Assembly (NCBI RefSeq): GCF_030531065.1
Contig: NZ_JAUNOQ010000002.1
Location: 125,953-189,952, forward strand
Length of the DNA stretch: 64,000 nt
DNA from: Phascolarctobacterium sp.
GTDB lineage: Bacteria; Bacillota; Negativicutes; Acidaminococcales; Acidaminococcaceae
Direction: 5' to 3'
Shown here: positions 1-8,426 of the stretch, in pieces
How positions within the stretch are numbered: position 1 is the first letter of the stretch
How the letters are laid out: each line of letters starts with the position of its first letter
The notes under the pieces: model-generated
What the model was told of the DNA's origin: nothing
The model's input: only the letters and a program-made list of their open reading frames with translations
Database searches by the model: none
Program-made: the position numbers and the translations under genes

Positions 1-207
1 CAGCGTCGGCAAATATTTCTGCATATTAGCGTTGGGCATACCGCGATCCACCCAATAGCCGGCAAAAACTACGCTGAAAGCGTCAGCGGCGGGAGCCTCG
101 TCACAGCGGCAGAGCAGCGCTCTTGCGCCTGCGGCCTCGGCCAAAGCCTTAGCCACCTTTTCCGTATTGCCTGTTTTGCTGTCGTAAACAATTAAAATAT
201 CCTGCAT
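1..207 (-). CDS. Flavodoxin-family protein, N-terminal part
   Basis: The first 69 codons of a flavodoxin-like FMN protein that runs off the left edge. The N-terminus reads MQDILIVYDSKTGNTEKVAK, the usual first beta strand followed by the phosphate-binding loop (SKTGNT) of flavodoxins. Later GYWVDRGMPN resembles the second flavin-contacting loop in short single-domain flavodoxin-family proteins of anaerobes. The ATG at 205-207 follows a GAGGAG ribosome site with normal spacing, so the start is secure. The likely role is cytoplasmic electron transfer; the partner is unknown because the rest of the gene and its downstream neighbours are outside the window. Confidence 0.8.
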   Translation of the reverse strand, partial: MQDILIVYDSKTGNTEKVAKALAEAAGARALLCRCDEAPAADAFSVVFAGYWVDRGMPNANMQKYLPTL

Positions 208-694
208 CTTCGTACTCCTCGTATAATATATTCAGAAGCCAAAAGCAGCTTCCGTTAAATTAACATATTTGTGTAATCGGCTTAGTCAAGCCCATGATAT
301 AATTGACTTTACTTTAAATTTTTCATCGCGCCCAGCATTTTCTGCCCGGCGTCCTCAAACAAATTCCAGCAACCTTTTCTTTGTTAGTCAAGGCTCACTC
401 ATCGCTAAAGTTAATTTTAGTATATCATTAAGACTGAAACACGTCAATGCGCAAGTACCAAATTACTAACGGCAAAATATAAAACAGCCTTCTGCCGCGC
501 TCTGTCCAACGCAGTAGAAGGCTGTCTTGCAAAAAGCTCCTAACATATTTGCCAATGTCCCCTAAGCAAGTATATCAAGAAGAAGGTATTGTGCATTCGT
601 CTATCGATTTGTCTGATCCAAGCAAGTGTAAAATTTGTATCTCAAGAAAATTTTTTAAGGAGAAAAATGTTGTTGTGAAAAAGTTTTATACGCT
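208..694. other. Intergenic region without a supported gene
   Basis: No credible coding region. A 66-codon plus-strand frame at 269-469 has no ribosome site and no recognisable protein features. The right part holds the terminator of the SLC13 gene; the left part should contain the promoter of the flavodoxin gene, but I could not pick one out. Confidence 0.5.
484..525 (-). terminator. Intrinsic terminator after the SLC13 gene
   Basis: Arms ACAGCCTTCTGC (484-495) and GCAGTAGAAGGCTGT (511-525) form a hairpin with an AGCCTTCT/AGAAGGCT core. Read on the minus strand it is followed by a T-rich run, so it ends transcription coming from the transporter gene at 695-1990. Confidence 0.75.
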
Positions 695-1990
695 TTAAGC
701 GGCAGCGGCTGCTGCGCCAGCGGCTGGGAAGAAGGGCCATACTACCGGAATAACCAGAATGGATACTACCAGGCACACGGCGACCAAGCCGGAACCGCAT
801 TTTACATAGTCCATGAATTTATATTTGCCGGGGCCCAGTACCAAGGTATTCGGCGGAGTGCCTACAGGAGAAGCGAAAGCGCAGCTGGAAGCAATCAGGA
901 TAGCCATCAGCACGGCCTTCGGAGAAGCGCCCATTTGTGCGGAAAGCGCAATGCCAACCGGGCACAGCAGAGCTTTAGACGCGGTGTTGGACATGAACTG
1001 AGTCAGCACCACAGCCAAGCAGAACAGTACGGCGGTAACAGTGTAGGGAGAAGGATCGCCGCCCATCATATTGACGGTAGCTTCAGCGATCAGCTTGCCT
1101 GCGCCGCTGGAATTCATAGCGTTAGCTACGGGAATCATGCCTGCAAACAGGAAGATTGTTACCCAGTCGATGGAATTATAGGCTTGCTTTTCGGTGATGC
1201 AGCCTGTCAGTACGCACAGTACCGCTCCCACAACAGCAGCCAGCTCCAGGGGTACTAGGCTGGTAGCCATGCACAGGATAACGCCTGCCATAATCACGCC
1301 GCAGATGATCTGCTTTTTGGTGCTGGTAGCGTTGGCTTCAAACTCCTGCTCCACATCAGCCTCAACCTCGACTACATCGTTGGGCAGGAAGTATTTGCCA
1401 ACAAACATCATATAAAGGATACCGGCAACCGTAATGGGAATGCCGATGTAAGCATATTCAAAGAAGCCGAATTGCAGGTTTTCCATACCGGCAGCTTTCA
1501 AGGCTACGTTAGCCAGAATGTTAGGCGGCGTGCCGATCAGGGTAATAGTGCCGCCCAAGCCTGCGGCGAAAGCCAAAGGCATCAGCTCGCGGGAGCTGGA
1601 CAGCTTGGCGTTAGCGCAAATGCCCAGAACTACCGGAATCAAGCAAGCCGTAGTACCGGTGTTGGAAAGAAAAGCGGACATCAAAGCCGCAATAACCATA
1701 ATACCGAACATCAAGCTGTTTTCGCCTTTGCCAAACAGCTTAACGACAGCGCCGCCGATCTTCTGTGCCAAACCGGTGTAAAACATGGCAGCGCCAACCA
1801 CGAACATACCGCCGAACAAAACTACGGTAGAATCGGCCAACCCCAGAAAAATTTGATTTTCTGGTACCAGACCCAAAGCGCTGCAGGCTACAGCCGCCAT
1901 TACTGCCGTCATTGCCAACGGAACCATTTCAGTGACAAAGAGCAGAGCGACTACTGCCAAAAGAATTAAGCATTTAATTGCCGGACTCAT
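695..1990 (-). CDS. SLC13/DASS-family anion:sodium symporter
   Basis: A 431-residue inner-membrane carrier of the divalent anion:sodium symporter (SLC13, CitT/INDY) family, which imports di- and tricarboxylates or sulfate. The two inverted halves are visible: SNTGTTACLIPV and SNTASKALLCPVG carry the paired Ser-Asn-Thr motifs that bind sodium and carboxylate, and each half also has a GTPPN loop. Hydrophobic segments run throughout. The C-terminus ends in an odd alanine stretch (AAGAAAAAA). Length is slightly below the family norm of about 460. The ATG at 1990 uses a GGAGGG site that overlaps the end of the small gene just upstream, so the two are co-transcribed. The LysR gene nearby is the probable regulator. 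A succinate or related dicarboxylate substrate is plausible but not shown. Confidence 0.9.
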   Translation of the reverse strand: MSPAIKCLILLAVVALLFVTEMVPLAMTAVMAAVACSALGLVPENQIFLGLADSTVVLFGGMFVVGAAMFYTGLAQKIGGAVVKLFGKGENSLMFGIMVIAALMSAFLSNTGTTACLIPVVLGICANAKLSSSRELMPLAFAAGLGGTITLIGTPPNILANVALKAAGMENLQFGFFEYAYIGIPITVAGILYMMFVGKYFLPNDVVEVEADVEQEFEANATSTKKQIICGVIMAGVILCMATSLVPLELAAVVGAVLCVLTGCITEKQAYNSIDWVTIFLFAGMIPVANAMNSSGAGKLIAEATVNMMGGDPSPYTVTAVLFCLAVVLTQFMSNTASKALLCPVGIALSAQMGASPKAVLMAILIASSCAFASPVGTPPNTLVLGPGKYKFMDYVKCGSGLVAVCLVVSILVIPVVWPFFPAAGAAAAAA

Positions 1991-1991
1991 A

Positions 1992-2210
1992 CTATCCCTC
2001 CAGTTTATTTTTGTCTTTAAAAAGATTTACGTATTGGAACGTGTTGGCGAACAGCTTACCATCTTCGCCGCGATGGGGAAAGACCAGCCCTTCCTTCTTA
2101 CGGTTTTCAATCGCGCGATAATAAAACTTTTTATCCACCTGTCTCAGGTACTCCCGAATTTTTGATTCTTCCTTTTCATTTTCATTATCCATAATGAGAG
2201 TTATATCCAC
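1992..2210 (-). CDS. Small protein with VFPHRG motif, upstream of the SLC13 gene
   Basis: A 72-residue charged, soluble protein of unknown function. Its middle contains YRAIENRKKEGLVFPHRGED, and a second small protein at 2536-2712 repeats the VFPHRG-x-D-x3-F core. I chose the GTG at 2210 because AAAGGAG lies nine bases before it; a TTG three codons upstream is too close to that site. The stop codon is one base from the SLC13 ATG, and the SLC13 ribosome site overlaps its end, so translation is likely coupled. Its promoter (2264-2311) matches that of the other small gene. It could be a modulator of the transporter, but nothing in the sequence proves this. I do not recognise the family. Confidence 0.7.
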   Translation of the reverse strand: MDITLIMDNENEKEESKIREYLRQVDKKFYYRAIENRKKEGLVFPHRGEDGKLFANTFQYVNLFKDKNKLEG

Positions 2211-2263
2211 CAAATTCAACTCCTTTCTTTCTGTTATTAGAGAGTTTCCCTTGACTGAAATAG

Positions 2264-2311
2264 ATTATACAATATATTCCGAAATAAGAAAAATATCTGA
2301 TTGGCATTAAA
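2264..2311 (-). promoter_or_regulatory. Promoter with upstream box, copy 1 (small gene and SLC13)
   Basis: On the minus strand a TATAAT -10 element (2264-2269) lies 19 bases after a 23-base box (2289-2311) containing AATGCCAATCAGATATTTTT. The -35 region is poor, as expected for an activator-dependent promoter. The same box, with the same 19-base spacing to a -10 element, occurs at 2780-2827. The adjacent LysR-type regulator is the natural candidate to bind here. Confidence 0.6.
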
Positions 2312-2359
2312 GTTATTCTTAAATCAGTATATGTTACTTATAAATACAGGCAAGCAAAA

Positions 2360-2417
2360 ACCGGCTGGAGAAAGATATACAAGGAGGTGGGAGATACAAT
2401 ACCTTTCTCAAGCCGGT
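2360..2417 (-). terminator. Terminator of the 58-residue small gene
   Basis: A 19-base inverted repeat with two mismatches: ACCGGCTGGAGAAAGATAT (2360-2378) pairs with ATACCTTTCTCAAGCCGGT (2399-2417). On the minus strand the stem is followed by TTTTTGCTTG. It separates the transcript of the 2536-2712 gene from the promoter of the next small gene. Confidence 0.75.
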
Positions 2418-2535
2418 CTATATCGATTTAATCGTAGCATTCGTTATAACAGAACTGTCTTCAGATACTTCCAGTAAAAATCCCTATCCATGATTTTCAG
2501 CCAGCGACTGAACAATACCTGCAGCTGCATTTCCA

Positions 2536-2712
2536 TCAGCCCCTTTTCAGCGCTCTAACGGAAGAATCGGACAACCTTGCGCCTTGAATGCGTTTAATAA
2601 AGTCTGCCGCATCCTGGCCACGATGAGGAAATACTTGAGCTGCCGCATTGCGTTTTCTTTGCAGATAAGCGTACACACCGGTTTTTTGTTGAATGTTTTG
2701 CTTTGCTTCCAT
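2536..2712 (-). CDS. Small 58-residue protein with VFPHRG motif
   Basis: A very short gene read directly from the sequence. The product starts MEAKQNIQQKTGVYAYLQRK and continues through AAAQVFPHRGQDAADF to a basic C-terminus (RALKRG). The ATG (2710-2712) has an AAAGGAG site at good spacing, the gene has its own promoter module (2780-2827) and its own terminator (2360-2417). The VFPHRG(Q/E)D-x3-F core, preceded by Tyr and Arg residues, is shared with the 72-residue protein at 1992-2210, so the two are probably paralogues. There is no signal peptide or membrane segment. The overlapping 65-codon frame at 2594-2791 is not favoured because it lacks these signals. Function unknown. Confidence 0.7.
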   Translation of the reverse strand: MEAKQNIQQKTGVYAYLQRKRNAAAQVFPHRGQDAADFIKRIQGARLSDSSVRALKRG

Positions 2713-2779
2713 GACGATCTACTCCTTTGCTAAATTCTTGCAATTTGTATTCACAAGGCTCTTTGCCTTTGTTGGTAAC

Positions 2780-2827
2780 AGTATACAACAAAAATCTTAA
2801 TAATAAAAATATCTAATAGGAATTAAA
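2780..2827 (-). promoter_or_regulatory. Promoter with upstream box, copy 2 (58-residue gene)
   Basis: TATACT -10 element (2780-2785, minus strand) and 19 bases upstream a 23-base box (2805-2827) containing AATTCCTATTAGATATTTTT. It differs at few positions from copy 1 at 2289-2311 and keeps identical spacing. An AACATAT word lies a little further upstream in both copies. Confidence 0.6.
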
Positions 2828-2867
2828 ATTATAACCAAGTAATATGTTCTTTAGCAGTAAATTCTCA

Positions 2868-2919
2868 CTGCAAATGAATTTGCATTTGCAGGTTGCTTTA
2901 TTTTTAGCAATATGCTAAA
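2868..2919. promoter_or_regulatory. Palindromic operator candidates between the small gene and the LysR gene
   Basis: Two inverted repeats: CTGCAAAT (2868-2875) with ATTTGCAG (2884-2891), and TTTAGCA (2903-2909) with TGCTAAA (2913-2919). They lie 64-115 bases before the LysR start codon, as expected for autoregulatory sites of LysR-type proteins. Binding is inferred only. Confidence 0.4.
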
Positions 2920-2982
2920 CTGATTTAGTAAATTAATAAATCATCCTATTTATTTTTATATATTACTTTGGAGGTGAAGCGT

Positions 2983-3915
2983 TTGGAATTAGATACCTAC
3001 CGTAACTTTCTTGCCATAGTTGAAGCAGGCAGCTTTACCGGAGCCTCCGATTATGTGCATATCGCTCAGCCGGCGCTGAGCAAACAGCTGCGCAATCTGG
3101 AAAACTACTTTGGCGCCAAGCTGATCCTCACCCAGCGCGGCAGTCGTCAGATTCTGTTGACCGAAGCGGGACGCGCCCTTTATCAGAAAGCAAAATATAT
3201 GTGCTCGCTTGAGGACCTGGCCCGCAATGAAATTGAAAATATCATGGGCGGCGTTATCGGCACGCTGCGCTTCAGCATCGCCAATTCCCGCTCGCCCGTT
3301 TTCATCGAATCCTCCCTCAAGGGCTTCTGCCAGCTGTATCCCAATATAAAATGCGAGCTGTACGAAGCAAGCATCAACGAGCAAAGCCAGCAGCTGCTCA
3401 ACGGCATTACGGAGCTTGGCATTTTCAGCGTTCCCGTCAATCACCAGGACAATTTTGAAGTACTGTTCCGCCGCGACGAGGAACTAGCCGCCGTTTTTCA
3501 TCACGAGTCTGTTTTTTTAGAGGACGATAAGCCCTGCGTCGGGCTCAAGGAACTGCATAATGTTCCCATCAGCCTTTCCGCCGGGTCTGCCGATATCTTC
3601 CTCAAGGGCTGCGAGCAGGCGGGAGTTATGCCCCGCGTCACCTGCGTCAGCACCACGCGCAGCACGGCGCTGGCCTGGACGCAGGTTAAGGCGGCTATTT
3701 CCATTGTCCCAGTAGAGCCGGGCGAAGATTTGGGCGAAGGCTTCGTTATCAAAAAGATAGCCGACCTGAACGCCGACGTCTATAAAACCGTAGTCAAGGT
3801 CAAGGACCGCCCGCTGTCCGTAGCGGCGCAGCATTTTCTGCGCTTCTATGCCCGCACCCGCGGCAGCCAGCAGGTGTGCGACTTGGACGCATTGCTAAAA
3901 AACGAAATCCTGTAA
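2983..3915 (+). CDS. LysR-family transcriptional regulator
   Basis: A 310-residue LysR-type regulator. The N-terminal winged helix-turn-helix is clear: ELDTYRNFLAIVEAGSFTGA then HIAQPALSKQLRNLE (about residues 2-45). The rest is the periplasmic-binding-like effector domain, with GVIGTLRFSIANSRSP starting its first lobe. I chose the TTG at 2983 because TTGGAGGTG forms a strong ribosome site seven bases upstream; a TTG at 2968 would place that site inside the gene. It is divergent from the two small-protein genes and the SLC13 transporter, the usual layout for a LysR activator and its targets. A terminator follows at 3954. Confidence 0.9.
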   Translation: MELDTYRNFLAIVEAGSFTGASDYVHIAQPALSKQLRNLENYFGAKLILTQRGSRQILLTEAGRALYQKAKYMCSLEDLARNEIENIMGGVIGTLRFSIANSRSPVFIESSLKGFCQLYPNIKCELYEASINEQSQQLLNGITELGIFSVPVNHQDNFEVLFRRDEELAAVFHHESVFLEDDKPCVGLKELHNVPISLSAGSADIFLKGCEQAGVMPRVTCVSTTRSTALAWTQVKAAISIVPVEPGEDLGEGFVIKKIADLNADVYKTVVKVKDRPLSVAAQHFLRFYARTRGSQQVCDLDALLKNEIL

Positions 3916-3953
3916 ATTAAAAACAAATCGCTTGCTGCCTGTAAAAACAAACA

Positions 3954-3990
3954 CCGCTCCTGCATACTGCTTTACGGTATGCCGGAGCGG
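3954..3990 (+). terminator. Terminator after the LysR gene
   Basis: Stem CCGCTCCTGCATAC (3954-3967) with GGTATGCCGGAGCGG (3976-3990), one bulge pair, followed by TTTCTTTCC. The minus-strand side is also T-rich, so it may also end transcription from the uracil-DNA glycosylase gene. Confidence 0.8.
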
Positions 3991-4064
3991 TTTCTTTCCG
4001 TCGATATTTTTTTGCGTATCGTTTCGTTACCCGAAAAAATTCAGCCACCTTCCGAACAATATTT

Positions 4065-4712
4065 TCACAAATAATCGTTGACCCGCTTTTTGAAAAGCTT
4101 AAATAAATCCGTCTTTTCCTCGGACATCAGCTTACAATCCGGCGCCAGCTGCAGCGTTCTTGCCCGCGCGGCCTCCAAATCATGGAAAACGTCCCATTTA
4201 GCCGCCACGAGCTGTCTGCCCGTCAGCCGCAGCAGATAAGCCGGATGATAGGTTGCAATGCAATCAAAGCCCTGCCGCGTACGGAACCATTGGCCGCGGT
4301 CGCGGGTAATGCGCATATTGGGATTGCCTAAAAAGTGTAGCGCCACGCTGCCCAAAGCCACCACTACTTTGGGCTGAATAATTTCCAGCTCCCGCTCCAG
4401 CCACATTTTGGCGCAAAAATCCGCCTCGGCAATATCAGGCGTGCGGTTATTTTGGGGACGGCATTTAATAACATTAGTCGTCAGCACTCTATCCCGTGTC
4501 ATCTTTACAGCCCACAGCGCTTTATCCAACAGCTGTCCTGAAGGGCCAATCAACGGGCAGCCGTAATCATCCTCCACACCGCCGGGCCCCTCGCCCACAA
4601 AAACGATGGGGCTATGAGGATCGCCGTACCAGCCCACCGGCGCAATAGCATCCCCGCGCAGCGGGCAGCTTTGGCAGCTTTTCAATTCCTGTTCCAATGC
4701 TTGTAAATCCAT
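4065..4712 (-). CDS. Uracil-DNA glycosylase, iron-sulfur family 4/5 type
   Basis: A 215-residue glycosylase that removes uracil from DNA as the first step of base excision repair. Family features in order: the N-terminal CQSCPL cysteine pair, motif 1 VGEGPGGVEDDYGCPLIGPS, then TNVIKCRPQNNRTP and FCAKMW supplying the other two cysteine ligands of the 4Fe-4S cluster, and the C-terminal motif ATYHPAYLLR with the conserved His. The ATG at 4712 follows GGGGGAAG; an in-frame upstream start would lie inside the lipase gene. It begins 16 bases after the lipase stop codon and is probably co-transcribed with it. Family 4 (UdgA-like) seems likelier than family 5. Confidence 0.9.
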   Translation of the reverse strand: MDLQALEQELKSCQSCPLRGDAIAPVGWYGDPHSPIVFVGEGPGGVEDDYGCPLIGPSGQLLDKALWAVKMTRDRVLTTNVIKCRPQNNRTPDIAEADFCAKMWLERELEIIQPKVVVALGSVALHFLGNPNMRITRDRGQWFRTRQGFDCIATYHPAYLLRLTGRQLVAAKWDVFHDLEAARARTLQLAPDCKLMSEEKTDLFKLFKKRVNDYL

Positions 4713-4728
4713 AGCGTACTTCCCCCAT

Positions 4729-6111
4729 TTATTCCTGCGACAAACGCGCTTCGTGCTGCAAAAGTACGAAAGGCAGCTGCTTATGCAGCTCCCGCCCGGC
4801 GTCCACCAGATTTTCACCGGCCGCCTGAATATTGCCCGCGCCCGGCGCTACCTTACGCCCCAAGCTGCTCATAGACAGCATCCGCCCCTGCTTATCGAAC
4901 AGCGCCTGCTCCAAGGTTAAATACCAGCCGCTGTCGTTGCGCTGACGGCTGCCGTCGATGCCGCAAATCAAAACGTAATCCGCGCCCGCATAACGGCTCA
5001 GCTGCACAAGATCCTGCTCCGCATAGGCCTCCTGTCCCAGCGCTTTGTCCATCACTACATAGGACGGCAGCATCCGCTTATACTCGTCGGTCAGGAAGCG
5101 TTTCAAATCCACAACCGTCGCCACCTTATGCAAGCGCGCGGCTTCGTTGATCCACAGCGCCACCACCGGTTCGTCCCTGGTTATTTTCGTATCCGGCGCA
5201 GGATACAGATGTCCCTGCGCCACCTCTTTATCAAACGCCTCATACAATTCGCTGACGCTGTAATCAAAATACATCGCCATATCGTGCTGCATGCTGCTCA
5301 ATTTAGGCGACAATCTGTATTTAATATGCCGCCCGAACTGCTTATAGCCGCCGAAAAAAGTTTGCAGGCTGCCTGGCACCGGGTCGGCAGTATTGGTAAT
5401 GCGCAGCAAATTAACAGCCGCGCCGTATTCCTGCACAAATTCCTCGTTGCCCACGGCAGGAGCGCCAAAGGTAACGATGGTAAATTTATCCTTGGGCAAG
5501 CCCAGGCTCACCAGACGCTCGCCCAGCAGCGTCGCCGCCGCGCCGCCCAAGCTGTGCCCCGACAAAACAAGGTAAGCGTCGCCGTCCTCCGCCGCCGCTT
5601 TAAACACGCCTTTGAGCTTACCGGCTTCATCCAGCACGGAACTGCGCAGCACCGCGTTCACATAGCTGTTGAAGCCCTCGTGTACGGCCGGCGCCTTTTC
5701 CCGCAAAGGCTTCGCGGCCAGGGCCTCCATCGCAGCCAAATCCGCGCCGCCAAAATTTACCTTCTGCGTTTGCAGGTTGACGCCCCAATCCTTTTTGCTG
5801 GCGCTGCCGCGAAATGTGACTAAAAAAACGCGCTTCTGCAGCTCAGGAAAATAATTGCGGGCGATAATGAAATTAGTTTCCACTTTGTCTTCCGCATAAG
5901 TTTGCGGCGCCAGCTCCCAGCCGTAGCTGCGCAGATAGCTGAATTCCGTAGAGCTGTCCGGCAAATATACGCCCAAGCACGACGCCGCCGCGACAGTCGT
6001 AAAATATTTATCGATATACTCCCGACTGACGTTCGGCACAGCAGCAGCCGCCGAAGCAACCCACAGTAATAAAGATAATAACAGCAAACATATTCTGCCT
6101 GACTTTCGCAT
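4729..6111 (-). CDS. Secreted lipase, class 3 alpha/beta hydrolase
   Basis: A 460-residue exported esterase or lipase. A classic Sec signal peptide opens the protein (MRKSGRICLLLLSLLLWVAS then AAAA, cleavage near residue 24). The class 3 fold is marked by TFRGSASKKDW (oxyanion-hole strand), the nucleophile elbow LSGHSLGGAAA and TFGAPAVGNEEF; NTADPVP offers the catalytic Asp, and a His in FGRHIKY or further on may complete the triad. About 200 residues follow the catalytic core and are of unknown role. There is no lipobox, so it is periplasmic or released. The ATG has a GGGAGG site. A promoter is visible at 6155-6182. Confidence 0.85.
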   Translation of the reverse strand: MRKSGRICLLLLSLLLWVASAAAAVPNVSREYIDKYFTTVAAASCLGVYLPDSSTEFSYLRSYGWELAPQTYAEDKVETNFIIARNYFPELQKRVFLVTFRGSASKKDWGVNLQTQKVNFGGADLAAMEALAAKPLREKAPAVHEGFNSYVNAVLRSSVLDEAGKLKGVFKAAAEDGDAYLVLSGHSLGGAAATLLGERLVSLGLPKDKFTIVTFGAPAVGNEEFVQEYGAAVNLLRITNTADPVPGSLQTFFGGYKQFGRHIKYRLSPKLSSMQHDMAMYFDYSVSELYEAFDKEVAQGHLYPAPDTKITRDEPVVALWINEAARLHKVATVVDLKRFLTDEYKRMLPSYVVMDKALGQEAYAEQDLVQLSRYAGADYVLICGIDGSRQRNDSGWYLTLEQALFDKQGRMLSMSSLGRKVAPGAGNIQAAGENLVDAGRELHKQLPFVLLQHEARLSQE

Positions 6112-6154
6112 AGCGCACCTCCCATACTGTCAAACGCTGCTCATACTTACTTTT

Positions 6155-6182
6155 ATTATAATCCACTTTGACTAAAAAACAA
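6155..6182 (-). promoter_or_regulatory. Promoter of the lipase gene
   Basis: Minus strand: TATAAT (6155-6160) with TTGTTT 16 bases upstream (6177-6182). The -35 element falls inside the direct repeat copy at 6174-6198, i.e. in the T-run of a broken terminator. Confidence 0.55.
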
Positions 6183-6198
6183 GAGCCGACGCGCTGCG
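6174..6198. repeat. 25-base direct repeat, copy 1 (left of the ATPase gene)
   Basis: Six A, one C, then AAGAGCCGACGCGCTGCG. An exact second copy lies at 7618-7642, so the ATPase gene is bracketed. This copy has the T-run and 3' arm of a terminator (minus strand) but not the matching 5' arm. Confidence 0.9.
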
Positions 6199-6199
6199 T

Positions 6200-7513
6200 T
6201 TAGTCCAAACAAAAATCCAACGCTCTGATTATTTTTATTCCGTCCTGTGTCTGAATAAATTCGCAATCCAAAGCAATAACAATTTTTTCGTAGCTGTCTC
6301 GAATTTTACGCAACGGGCTTAGCTCCCGTTCCCGCGTTTCCGGAGCGTTCATCGATTCAGTGACCTGGATATATTTTTTCTCGTCCGCTTTGGTAGCGAT
6401 AAAGTCAACCTCCTGATTGTCTATTTTCCCTATAGCCACATCATAACCACGGCGCAGCAATTCAAAATAAATGATATTCTCCAAAATATGTCCGCTGTCG
6501 CCATCACGATACCCCAAAAGATAATTTCGCAAGCCAATATCCACAATATAATATTTGCCAAGCGTACGCAGGTATTCCTTACCCTTAATATCAAAGCGCT
6601 TGATTTCATAAAAAATATAGGCTTCTGTCAGCGCTTCAATATACGCCTGAATCGTTTGTACGGCAGGCTTCGTCTTGCGAGCTCCGTTCGCCAAAAGCCC
6701 CTCGTTGACTAAAGTATTGCCAATAGACGTAGCGGAAGTATTATTGCCAATATTGTAGGCCAAAAATAAAATAATTTTTCTCAACAGTACCGGGTTAGTA
6801 ATATTTCTCTGCCCTTTTCTCTTTTCCCGTTCCAAGATATCGTTGACCACAGCCGCAGAATACACGCCGTCTAAAGCCGCTGCTACCTTATCGATTTCCA
6901 AGCCTACGTCCGCCAGCATCGGCATGCCGCCAAATTTCACATAAGCGTCAAACAGCTCTTTGACCTCATAGGTTTCGCCGTTCATATCCGTTATTCTCTT
7001 TTTGACGCCTCCGGCCGGCGACCTTCGTTCTGTCAGGATATATCCATGAAATTCCAAAAATTCCTTAAATGATAAGGGCAGCATCTTGATCTCCACATAG
7101 CGTCCGGAAAGGTAAGTGGAAAGCTCGGAAGAAAGCAAATAAGCATTGGAACCTGTAATATATATATCGCAATCAAAATCAACCCGAAATGCATTGACCG
7201 CCTTTTCCCAGCCGGACACCTGCTGCACCTCATCAAAAAAAAGGTAAGTGCGTTTCTTCGGACAAACGCGCGCTTTAATATATTCATAAAAGCCTCTCGC
7301 ATCCATATCGGGAATAGTCATAGACTCAAAATTGATTTCGATAATTTGTTCCTCCGTCACTCCGGTATCCCGCAAATGCTCTGCCATCAGCTTCATCAAG
7401 CTGGACTTACCACAACGGCGTATACCGGTGACGACTTTAATCATTTCAGTATCCTGAAACGCTATAAGACGCTTCAAATATAGATCTCGTTTACGCAAAG
7501 CAGTTTTTTTCAT
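6200..7513 (-). CDS. AAA ATPase with DUF4143 domain (AAA_14 type)
   Basis: A 437-residue ATPase of the AAA_14/DUF4143 group, found as isolated accessory genes in many bacteria and archaea; function unclear. Walker A is VVTGIRRCGKSSLMK (about residue 27), Walker B is YLFFDEVQQVSGWEKAV, and SGRYVEIKMLPLSFKEFLEF is the typical stretch leading into DUF4143. The C-terminus (NQEVDFIATK, then KYIQVTES) resembles the PD-(D/E)XK-like fold seen at the end of these proteins. It is less GC-rich than its neighbours and is bracketed by an exact 25-base direct repeat, both signs of insertion. A candidate promoter (TTGAAA, 17 bases, TATTGT) lies just upstream. Confidence 0.85.
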   Translation of the reverse strand: MKKTALRKRDLYLKRLIAFQDTEMIKVVTGIRRCGKSSLMKLMAEHLRDTGVTEEQIIEINFESMTIPDMDARGFYEYIKARVCPKKRTYLFFDEVQQVSGWEKAVNAFRVDFDCDIYITGSNAYLLSSELSTYLSGRYVEIKMLPLSFKEFLEFHGYILTERRSPAGGVKKRITDMNGETYEVKELFDAYVKFGGMPMLADVGLEIDKVAAALDGVYSAAVVNDILEREKRKGQRNITNPVLLRKIILFLAYNIGNNTSATSIGNTLVNEGLLANGARKTKPAVQTIQAYIEALTEAYIFYEIKRFDIKGKEYLRTLGKYYIVDIGLRNYLLGYRDGDSGHILENIIYFELLRRGYDVAIGKIDNQEVDFIATKADEKKYIQVTESMNAPETRERELSPLRKIRDSYEKIVIALDCEFIQTQDGIKIIRALDFCLD

Positions 7514-7617
7514 AAAGGAGACCCCCCTTCACTTAAAACAATAACATAAACTCTCAAAAATTTCAAGTTTATAGAATCAATACCATAAACTTTTGCTTCG
7601 AAGAAGTTTCTAACGAC

Positions 7618-7642
7618 AAAAAACAAGAGCCGACGCGCTGCG
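7618..7642. repeat. 25-base direct repeat, copy 2 (right of the ATPase gene)
   Basis: Identical to 6174-6198. This copy overlaps an intact terminator and contains its T-run, 3' arm, loop and first bases of the 5' arm, so it looks like the original site. Confidence 0.9.
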
Positions 7643-7649
7643 CCAGCTC
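7624..7649 (-). terminator. Terminator of the Ugp-like transporter operon
   Basis: On the minus strand GAGCTGGCGC, loop AGC, GCGTCGGCTC gives a 10-pair stem (two G-T pairs), followed by TTGTTTTTT. It ends the operon whose last gene is the TIM-barrel protein at 7671. Confidence 0.85.
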
Positions 7650-7670
7650 CTTTTCTTCATTATTATATAT

Positions 7671-8426
7671 TTATAATTTGTACGCTTCCTTCAGTTCGGC
7701 GATGTGCCGCGCCAGCGCTTCCGTTCCGTCAAAGCCGCAGCTGTATTCCAGCACCTGCGCCGCCTGGGGCGCATACTCTTTTACGGCGGCAAAGTAAGCC
7801 TGCCAGTCGATAGTTCCCCGTCCTACCGGCAAATGCTCGTCCCCCGCGCCGCTGTTATCGTGAATATGGCAGGCCTCCAGCCGCGTGCCCAAAGCCCGCA
7901 CCGTCTGCGCCAAATCCCAGCCGTTGACATGGGCGTGACCTGTATCCAGCAGCGCGCCCGCTTGTGGAAAAGTTTTAAACAGCGCCAGATATTCTTCAAA
8001 GTCAAACAGCACGTTGCCCTTCGTCCGCAGGCCCACGTTTTCAATGAGCAGCCGCACATTACATTCAGCGGCCAGCTCCAGCAGTTCGCCTAAACGGCGC
8101 TGTACCAGCAGCTGCGTCTGAAGCTTAGCGCCCCGCCAGCCTTCGTTAGTATGCGCCACCACAAAGCCCGCGTTAATTTTGGCCGCATAAGCCAGCGTCG
8201 CTTTAAAAGCCGTCAAATAATGCTTATCGTCGGCGTCGGCCAGATTAACGGCCACGCAGGGGCCGTGGATGGACAGCTCCCGCCGCCCCCAGGCGGCCGT
8301 CTCTTCATCCCAGTAATAGTCCTTGCCAAATTCGTAAAAAAATTCAATGCCGTATTCCGGCGGCAAAGAACGCAAAGCATTTTTTGTAAAGCCTGCAAAC
8401 AGCAGGTCGCTGACCTCAAAGCGCAT
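7671..8426 (-). CDS. Sugar phosphate isomerase/epimerase-like TIM-barrel protein
   Basis: A 251-residue protein of the xylose isomerase-like/AP endonuclease 2 superfamily. Metal-site motifs expected for the fold are present: VVAHTNEGW, LLIENVG (Glu ligand), GALLDTGHAHVNG (Asp and His ligands) and CHIHDNSGAGDEHLPVGRG followed by IDW. This superfamily includes sugar isomerases, epimerases and endonuclease IV; the motif layout favours the isomerase/epimerase side. The ATG directly abuts the stop codon of the ABC ATPase gene, so it is the last gene of the importer operon and probably acts on the imported compound or its product. Substrate unknown. Confidence 0.8.
   Translation of the reverse strand: MRFEVSDLLFAGFTKNALRSLPPEYGIEFFYEFGKDYYWDEETAAWGRRELSIHGPCVAVNLADADDKHYLTAFKATLAYAAKINAGFVVAHTNEGWRGAKLQTQLLVQRRLGELLELAAECNVRLLIENVGLRTKGNVLFDFEEYLALFKTFPQAGALLDTGHAHVNGWDLAQTVRALGTRLEACHIHDNSGAGDEHLPVGRGTIDWQAYFAAVKEYAPQAAQVLEYSCGFDGTEALARHIAELKEAYKL

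Follow-up and report, generated by a model that had tools for sequence, protein, structure and literature searches.

A LysR-type regulator gene, a pair of promoters with a predicted LysR site, genes for small proteins and a DASS/SLC13 family transporter gene lie together in Phascolarctobacterium sp., and the recurrence of this small-protein set next to such a transporter in further genera and families points to what is probably a real control module for succinate uptake. Our reading of the locus, tentative and held at a little less than an even chance, is a LysR-controlled uptake module for C4-dicarboxylates, most likely succinate, in which a dedicated small-protein family would tune uptake in trans. 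The analysed DNA (the window) is a stretch of 64,000 nucleotides from a genome of 2.37 Mb, with the following features:

695..1990, minus strand: gene for a DASS/SLC13 family transporter (CitMHS) of 431 aa; Pfam PF03600, NCBIfam TIGR00785
1992..2210, minus strand: S1, 72-aa small protein; conserved ORF, synonymous/nonsynonymous change
2264..2311, minus strand: S1-DASS promoter, with the box at 2289-2311, a 19-nt gap and the -10 hexamer TATAAT at 2264-2269
T at 2306 and A at 2294, minus strand: T-N11-A half-site of the S1-DASS promoter; matrix score 63.7, present in 19/19 promoters
2358..2419, minus strand: rho-independent terminator-like hairpin with a downstream U run, in the gap from S3 to the S1 promoter
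2444..2536, minus strand: S3, 30-aa ORF overlapping the S2 stop codon (TGATG); equivalent in genome G003, pS/pN
2536..2712, minus strand: S2, 58-aa small protein, predicted paralogue of S1; 8 members, profile comparison
2780..2827, minus strand: S2-S3 promoter, with the box at 2805-2827, a 19-nt gap and the -10 hexamer TATACT at 2780-2785
T at 2822 and A at 2810, minus strand: T-N11-A half-site of the S2-S3 promoter; matrix score 51.9
2983..3915, plus strand: gene for a LysR-type transcriptional regulator, divergent from the small genes; PF00126, PF03466

Both small ORFs of the initial annotation (58 aa at 2536-2712 and 72 aa at 1992-2210) are present on the minus strand, and S3 is a third ORF absent from it. 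The coupling of a small gene to the SLC13 gene that it proposed is borne out by an S1 stop codon 1 nt before the DASS ATG, and the DASS SD sequence (GGAGGG) lies inside the 3' end of S1. S1 starts with GTG at 2210, with an SD-like AAAGGAG, and an upstream in-frame TTG would give 75 aa. The LysR gene, also annotated as divergent, starts with TTG and the SD sequence GGAGGTGAAGCG, in an ORF open from 2968, and its product has PF00126 (HTH_1) and PF03466 (substrate-binding) above cut-off. Region 2338-2450 folds at -30 kcal/mol (z -4.2 against 200 shuffles); the hairpin within it was missed by a simple terminator scan, which takes loops of 3-8 only. As this hairpin and its U run lie between S2-S3 and the S1 promoter, the small genes probably belong to two transcription units. 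No Rfam match was found in window positions 1-8000.

Comparison with G003 gave pS 0.86 and pN 0.20 for S1, 0.71 and 0.40 for S2, and 0.71 and 0.29 for S3. Synonymous change is thus near saturation while nonsynonymous change is lower, so that the small ORFs are under purifying selection and S1 and S2 are genes; indeed, SD sequences precede nearly all of their copies. S3 could be a functional peptide. Its C-terminus in the window is DFYWKYLKTVLL, and that of the G003 equivalent is MPALSFFDRWIRLLERDFYWKYIKTVLL; weaker equivalents were found in G006 and G028. The C-terminal DFYWKY(L/I)KTVLL is kept in G003, and a weaker KVVLL ending is seen in G006.

By profile comparison, S1 and S2 are paralogues. 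An S1 alignment (A3) of 13 further members, besides which more distant relatives were found, matched the S2 set of 8 members with an hhalign E of 5e-7 and a score of 35.4, as compared to at most 18.5 in 150 column-shuffled profiles. Because the profiles match so far above the shuffles, the resemblance of the tandem genes in the window reflects a true duplication. The VFPHRG(E/Q)D-x3-F stretch, annotated as their shared core, is indeed present in both window proteins, but it is not the core of the family: we rejected FPHRG as a family-defining motif because many homologues are without it, the position reading FPLLG, FPYNG or LPHYR in S1 homologues and FPHN, YKKR or FTDY in S2 homologues. A better common core is an aromatic/basic helix (YxxxIxxR), followed by F some 7-8 residues on. 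Small ORFs near the LysR/DASS loci of G349 (L145:3602-3892 and 4068-4331, minus strand) and G348 (L144:5249-5482, plus strand) carry two copies of a ~20-residue motif, Yx(H/Y)L(L/C)xxRLxxA(D), that resembles the S1/S2 core and is perhaps an ancestral repeat unit.

S1 and S2 lie outside any family described in Pfam, NCBIfam, PHROGs or PDB and are unclassified. Pfam gave only chance-level, non-recurrent matches for all members of alignments A3 and A7, NCBIfam only chance-level matches for the window S1 and S2, PHROGs no match for the S1, S2 and S3 representatives scanned, and PDB sequences none for S2 and none below E 0.17 for S1. DUF6870, Lsm2 and Mrr_cat_2 appeared as weak Pfam/PDB matches of single members, and were set aside as chance. 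No transmembrane segment is predicted in either protein: the maximal 19-residue Kyte-Doolittle mean is -0.37 for S1 and -0.18 for S2, and at most 0.77 in the other S1 and S2 sequences computed. AlphaFold modelled S1 as a long helix plus a short one (pLDDT 60) and S2 as a helix, a kink at FPH, a helix, a short hairpin and a helix (pLDDT 76). A fold search was run on the S2 model, the S1 model being too poor as a query, and gave no meaningful match (best E 5).

Across three families of Negativicutes, 12 genomes have between them 13 loci at which an S1 homologue adjoins a DASS gene, and at 12 of the 13 loci DASS starts ~1-45 nt after S1. S1 homologues occur in 4/6 other genomes of the genus, in up to four copies, and also in another genus; the named relatives matching the S1 profile are all Phascolarctobacterium MAGs. 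The order LysR, S2-S3, S1-DASS, or a rearrangement of it, is found in eight genomes of one family besides the window's own, although S2 was not detected in three g14 members of these, where S1 was found by a class-wide profile search. The class-wide search also led to an S1/S2/LysR/DASS set in a second family (G324), with a DASS 78% identical to the window's and S1 at 322 nt from it. The third family (G348, G349) was reached by a DASS search, and here an S1-like ORF lies between the divergent LysR gene (39-42% identity to the window's) and the DASS gene (70%).

S1 is directly upstream of all ten family DASS genes with 75-100% identity to that of the window, and a divergent LysR gene is in view at nine, the contig of the tenth (G006) ending before the LysR position. 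The closest DASS relatives, those of the family at 75-92% identity and that of G324 at 78%, all have S1 adjoining, while for DASS paralogues at 63-70% identity within the family no related LysR gene was found in the flanks compared. LysR orthologues adjoin S1/S2/DASS at every module locus on a contig long enough to show it; S2, wherever found on a contig that reaches LysR, adjoins it on one side or the other. Extra S1 copies exist in G004 and G005, which have S2 and another S1 copy beyond LysR, and in G006, where the second S1 comes after DASS; none of these copies has a DASS gene following. The window's own genome has one S1 and one S2 versus five DASS matches. A second S1 match in it (E 0.0056) was discarded, as its frame is broken by stop codons.

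Conservation of the small frames in related genomes extends to the promoter boxes, the reverse of what the initial annotation had named as a refutation. In the window, the boxes at 2289-2311 and 2805-2827 are identical at 20 of 23 positions and each stands exactly 19 bases from a -10 hexamer, as annotated. When aligned on the -10, 19 promoters (S1, S2 and extra S1 genes of nine genomes) need no gap and give the consensus ATA-N2-TtttATGcc-N6-gaTATTTTT-N19-TATAaT; the -10 hexamers were chosen by eye, and the computed part is the promoter alignment. Scored with a matrix derived from the 17 promoters outside the window, the two window sites come out first and second of 127,892 positions (63.7 and 51.9), and the third-best position reaches 9.5. 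Since the matrix places both sites so far above position three, the box pair is not due to chance. Counted from the first base of the -10, 19/19 promoters have T at -37 and A at -25, where 2.6 are expected; the best other position for this spacing is found in 11. T-N11-A is the half-site signature of LysR regulators. The S1-DASS and S2-S3 promoters are without a good -35 hexamer of their own. Searching the own genome by pattern only, we found box plus -10 with 0 mismatches at the two window sites alone, the other matches being two 3-mismatch copies of one unrelated sequence. In G324, the matrix score is 27.2 before S2, and only 9.0 for the S1 box. The conserved layout and the invariant T-N11-A spacing thus speak for the suggested small regulon of LysR, in which small-protein genes precede that of a transporter. 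The AACATAT word noted upstream does occur in both window promoters, but it is 3 bases out of register and absent in relatives, and we ascribe it to chance.

LysR relatives form two clades in a tree. Members of one lie beside succinate CoA-transferase genes (TIGR03458), which are cut by locus ends and score below the full-length cut-off; members of the other lie beside DASS genes, MatC dicarboxylate carriers (MatC_N) and small genes, and one adjoins mmdA (a cut gene). Using a matrix built from module loci only, for which the top scores of background loci reach ~12, we found the top site directly before the gene divergent from the LysR paralogue, namely DASS in L130 (32.0) and MatC in L126 (19.1), and likewise before single 60-aa ORFs in L131 (35.3), L127 (32.2) and L128 (32.4). 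Scores before the succinate CoA-transferase genes of the sister clade are lower and mixed (0.5-21.5). Because the same box precedes other LysR-divergent genes, it goes with the LysR subfamily and not with the small genes. The LysR-DASS pair L130 and the LysR-MatC pairs have no small gene in the stretch examined, so that the small proteins are dispensable for the basic circuit.

The 60-aa proteins (L131:2352-2531, plus strand; L127:5438-5617, plus strand; L128:497-676, minus strand) have no DASS gene in the stretch examined. These A6-type ORFs resemble S2 in KRN-x5-F and QGxxL(S/T), and their profile scores 14.8 against that of S2, a value reached by 1/150 shuffles; they are possibly distant S2 relatives, the comparison being only suggestive. 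Weak A6 matches in G019, G122 and G336 proved to be chance matches when the loci were inspected.

The DASS gene of the window scores 202.2 bits with TIGR00785 (cut-off 198.6) and 263 bits with PF03600 (cut-off 31.9; E 4e-78). From this family membership and the LysR neighbourhoods we regard it as a probable importer of succinate/C4-dicarboxylates, and we infer that the substrate is succinate or a close C4-dicarboxylate. As the box precedes DASS, MatC and small genes and, weakly, succinate CoA-transferase genes beside LysR paralogues, the link of the module to succinate uptake appears supported, and the carboxylate-transport role conjectured earlier gains ground with it. Phascolarctobacterium-type gut bacteria, by using succinate, provide a main route by which succinate of microbial origin becomes propionate. 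P. faecium specializes in succinate, and high expression of two of its DASS genes was reported for co-culture with a succinate producer (PMC7568257). Our search of the literature for Phascolarctobacterium, succinate, transporter and LysR found no paper, and no regulator of succinate uptake in Phascolarctobacterium-type bacteria turned up in the library searches. The module names a candidate regulator, with a probable binding site placed at base resolution by footprinting across the promoters, and it brings to light an unclassified, fast-evolving small-protein family tied to one kind of SLC13 transporter. The own genome has two further tandem pairs of DASS paralogues (G000:C3:25417-28374 and G000:C26:152426-155457), with ~68-70% identity to the window's.

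Strong comparative evidence suggests that LysR would bind the T-N11-A site overlapping the -35 region of the two promoters, and it would in all likelihood activate the units S2-S3 and S1-DASS. Codon-level selection indicates that S1, S2 and probably S3 would then be translated. More speculatively, S1 and S2 would be small regulators that act in trans to adjust uptake once it is induced, the probable target of S1 being the transporter encoded next to it, so that transport activity or specificity would be set together with transporter expression. There is a precedent in Methylomonas sp. DH-1, where a LysR-type regulator, WatR, controls paralogous and previously unannotated polypeptides of ~50 aa (WatS1-WatS5) and the WatABO pump, and a WatS small protein is proposed to tune or change the specificity of the pump (PMC10355033). 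The likeness, paralogous small proteins of ~50-75 aa under one LysR regulator together with organic-acid transport, concerns only the site and the way the genes are arranged. A single transmembrane segment is predicted for each of WatS1-4, whose genes lie apart from those of the pump, whereas S1 and S2 have no hydrophobic segment and share one locus; WatABO is an RND exporter, and the window transporter a DASS importer. As in WatR/WatS, the small proteins are most likely trans-acting modulators of LysR-induced uptake. That they tune the transporter is our preferred, if speculative, reading, with tuning of LysR as a close rival. Its boldest form, in which S1 and S2 would represent a novel soluble small-protein family with direct control over an elevator-type DASS/SLC13 transporter, as paralogues within the transporter's own LysR regulon and with S3 as a 30-aa peptide under the same control, we consider rather unlikely. 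As the AlphaFold models are weak and S2 is without a fold match, the transporter-tuning step has no structural support.

The S1 copies away from DASS, and the S2-like genes beside LysR genes without DASS, fit an action on LysR as well as one on the transporter. S1 and S2 could accordingly be feedback modulators: LysR would induce S2 and S1, which would bind LysR or the LysR-DNA complex and dampen or sharpen the induction. The LysR box on both small units is what such a loop needs, S2 stays beside LysR in every locus where the contig extends to it, and LysR paralogues with no visible DASS neighbour have divergent single S2-like genes that carry the same box. However, DASS immediately follows S1 at 12 of 13 loci, some LysR paralogues have no small gene (L124-L126, L130), and the homology of the A6-type proteins to S2 is only suggestive; we regard feedback on LysR as possible but doubtful.

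Two other explanations appear considerably weaker. S1 and S2 might play an unrelated cytosolic role in succinate dissimilation, for example as binding partners of a carboxylase or CoA-transferase subunit, and have no more than the LysR promoter in common with the transporter. This would agree with the succinate CoA-transferase genes adjoining the sister LysR clade and with the one LysR gene that has a small gene and adjoins mmdA, but all S1 genes found lie at loci of this DASS group and none by pathway enzyme genes, making such a role improbable. Slightly less probable again is that the small ORFs are leaders or spacers that only couple translation or place a regulatory mRNA structure, their peptides being inert. 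The 1-nt distance from S1 to DASS, the DASS SD sequence within S1 and the overlap of S3 with the S2 stop codon are all as expected for leaders; yet amino acids are conserved while synonymous change is near-saturated, the extra S1 copies of G004, G005 and G006 have no DASS after them, and S2-S3, ending in a hairpin before the next promoter, leads nothing.

Tuning of the transporter by S1 and S2, the preferred reading, also differs from other known cases. SgrT is a small protein that acts on a transporter and is made from a dual-function RNA. The membrane small protein AcrZ changes the activity or specificity of the AcrB transporter (PMC7267776). Neither AcrZ nor SgrT is known to be encoded in a LysR divergon that has paralogues next to a transporter gene. 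Small proteins under LysR control are also known from Agrobacterium and Brucella, where VtlR directly activates small-protein genes, one of them linked to fucose use in Brucella (PMC7486931). VtlR also drives an AbcR small RNA, while the window locus is without an Rfam match, and no transporter gene is described in the VtlR small-protein unit, whereas the S1 unit has DASS. The window LysR scores best against the CidR, CynR and GltC models, and like these regulators it has a divergent target and a T-N11-A site near the -35; all three scores are far below the equivalog cut-offs, so it is none of them. Lastly, LysR proteins with 39-44% identity to that of the window are encoded next to genes for succinate CoA-transferase in many of the family's genomes (L110-L121, L132), and form a candidate regulator subfamily for succinate-to-propionate metabolism.
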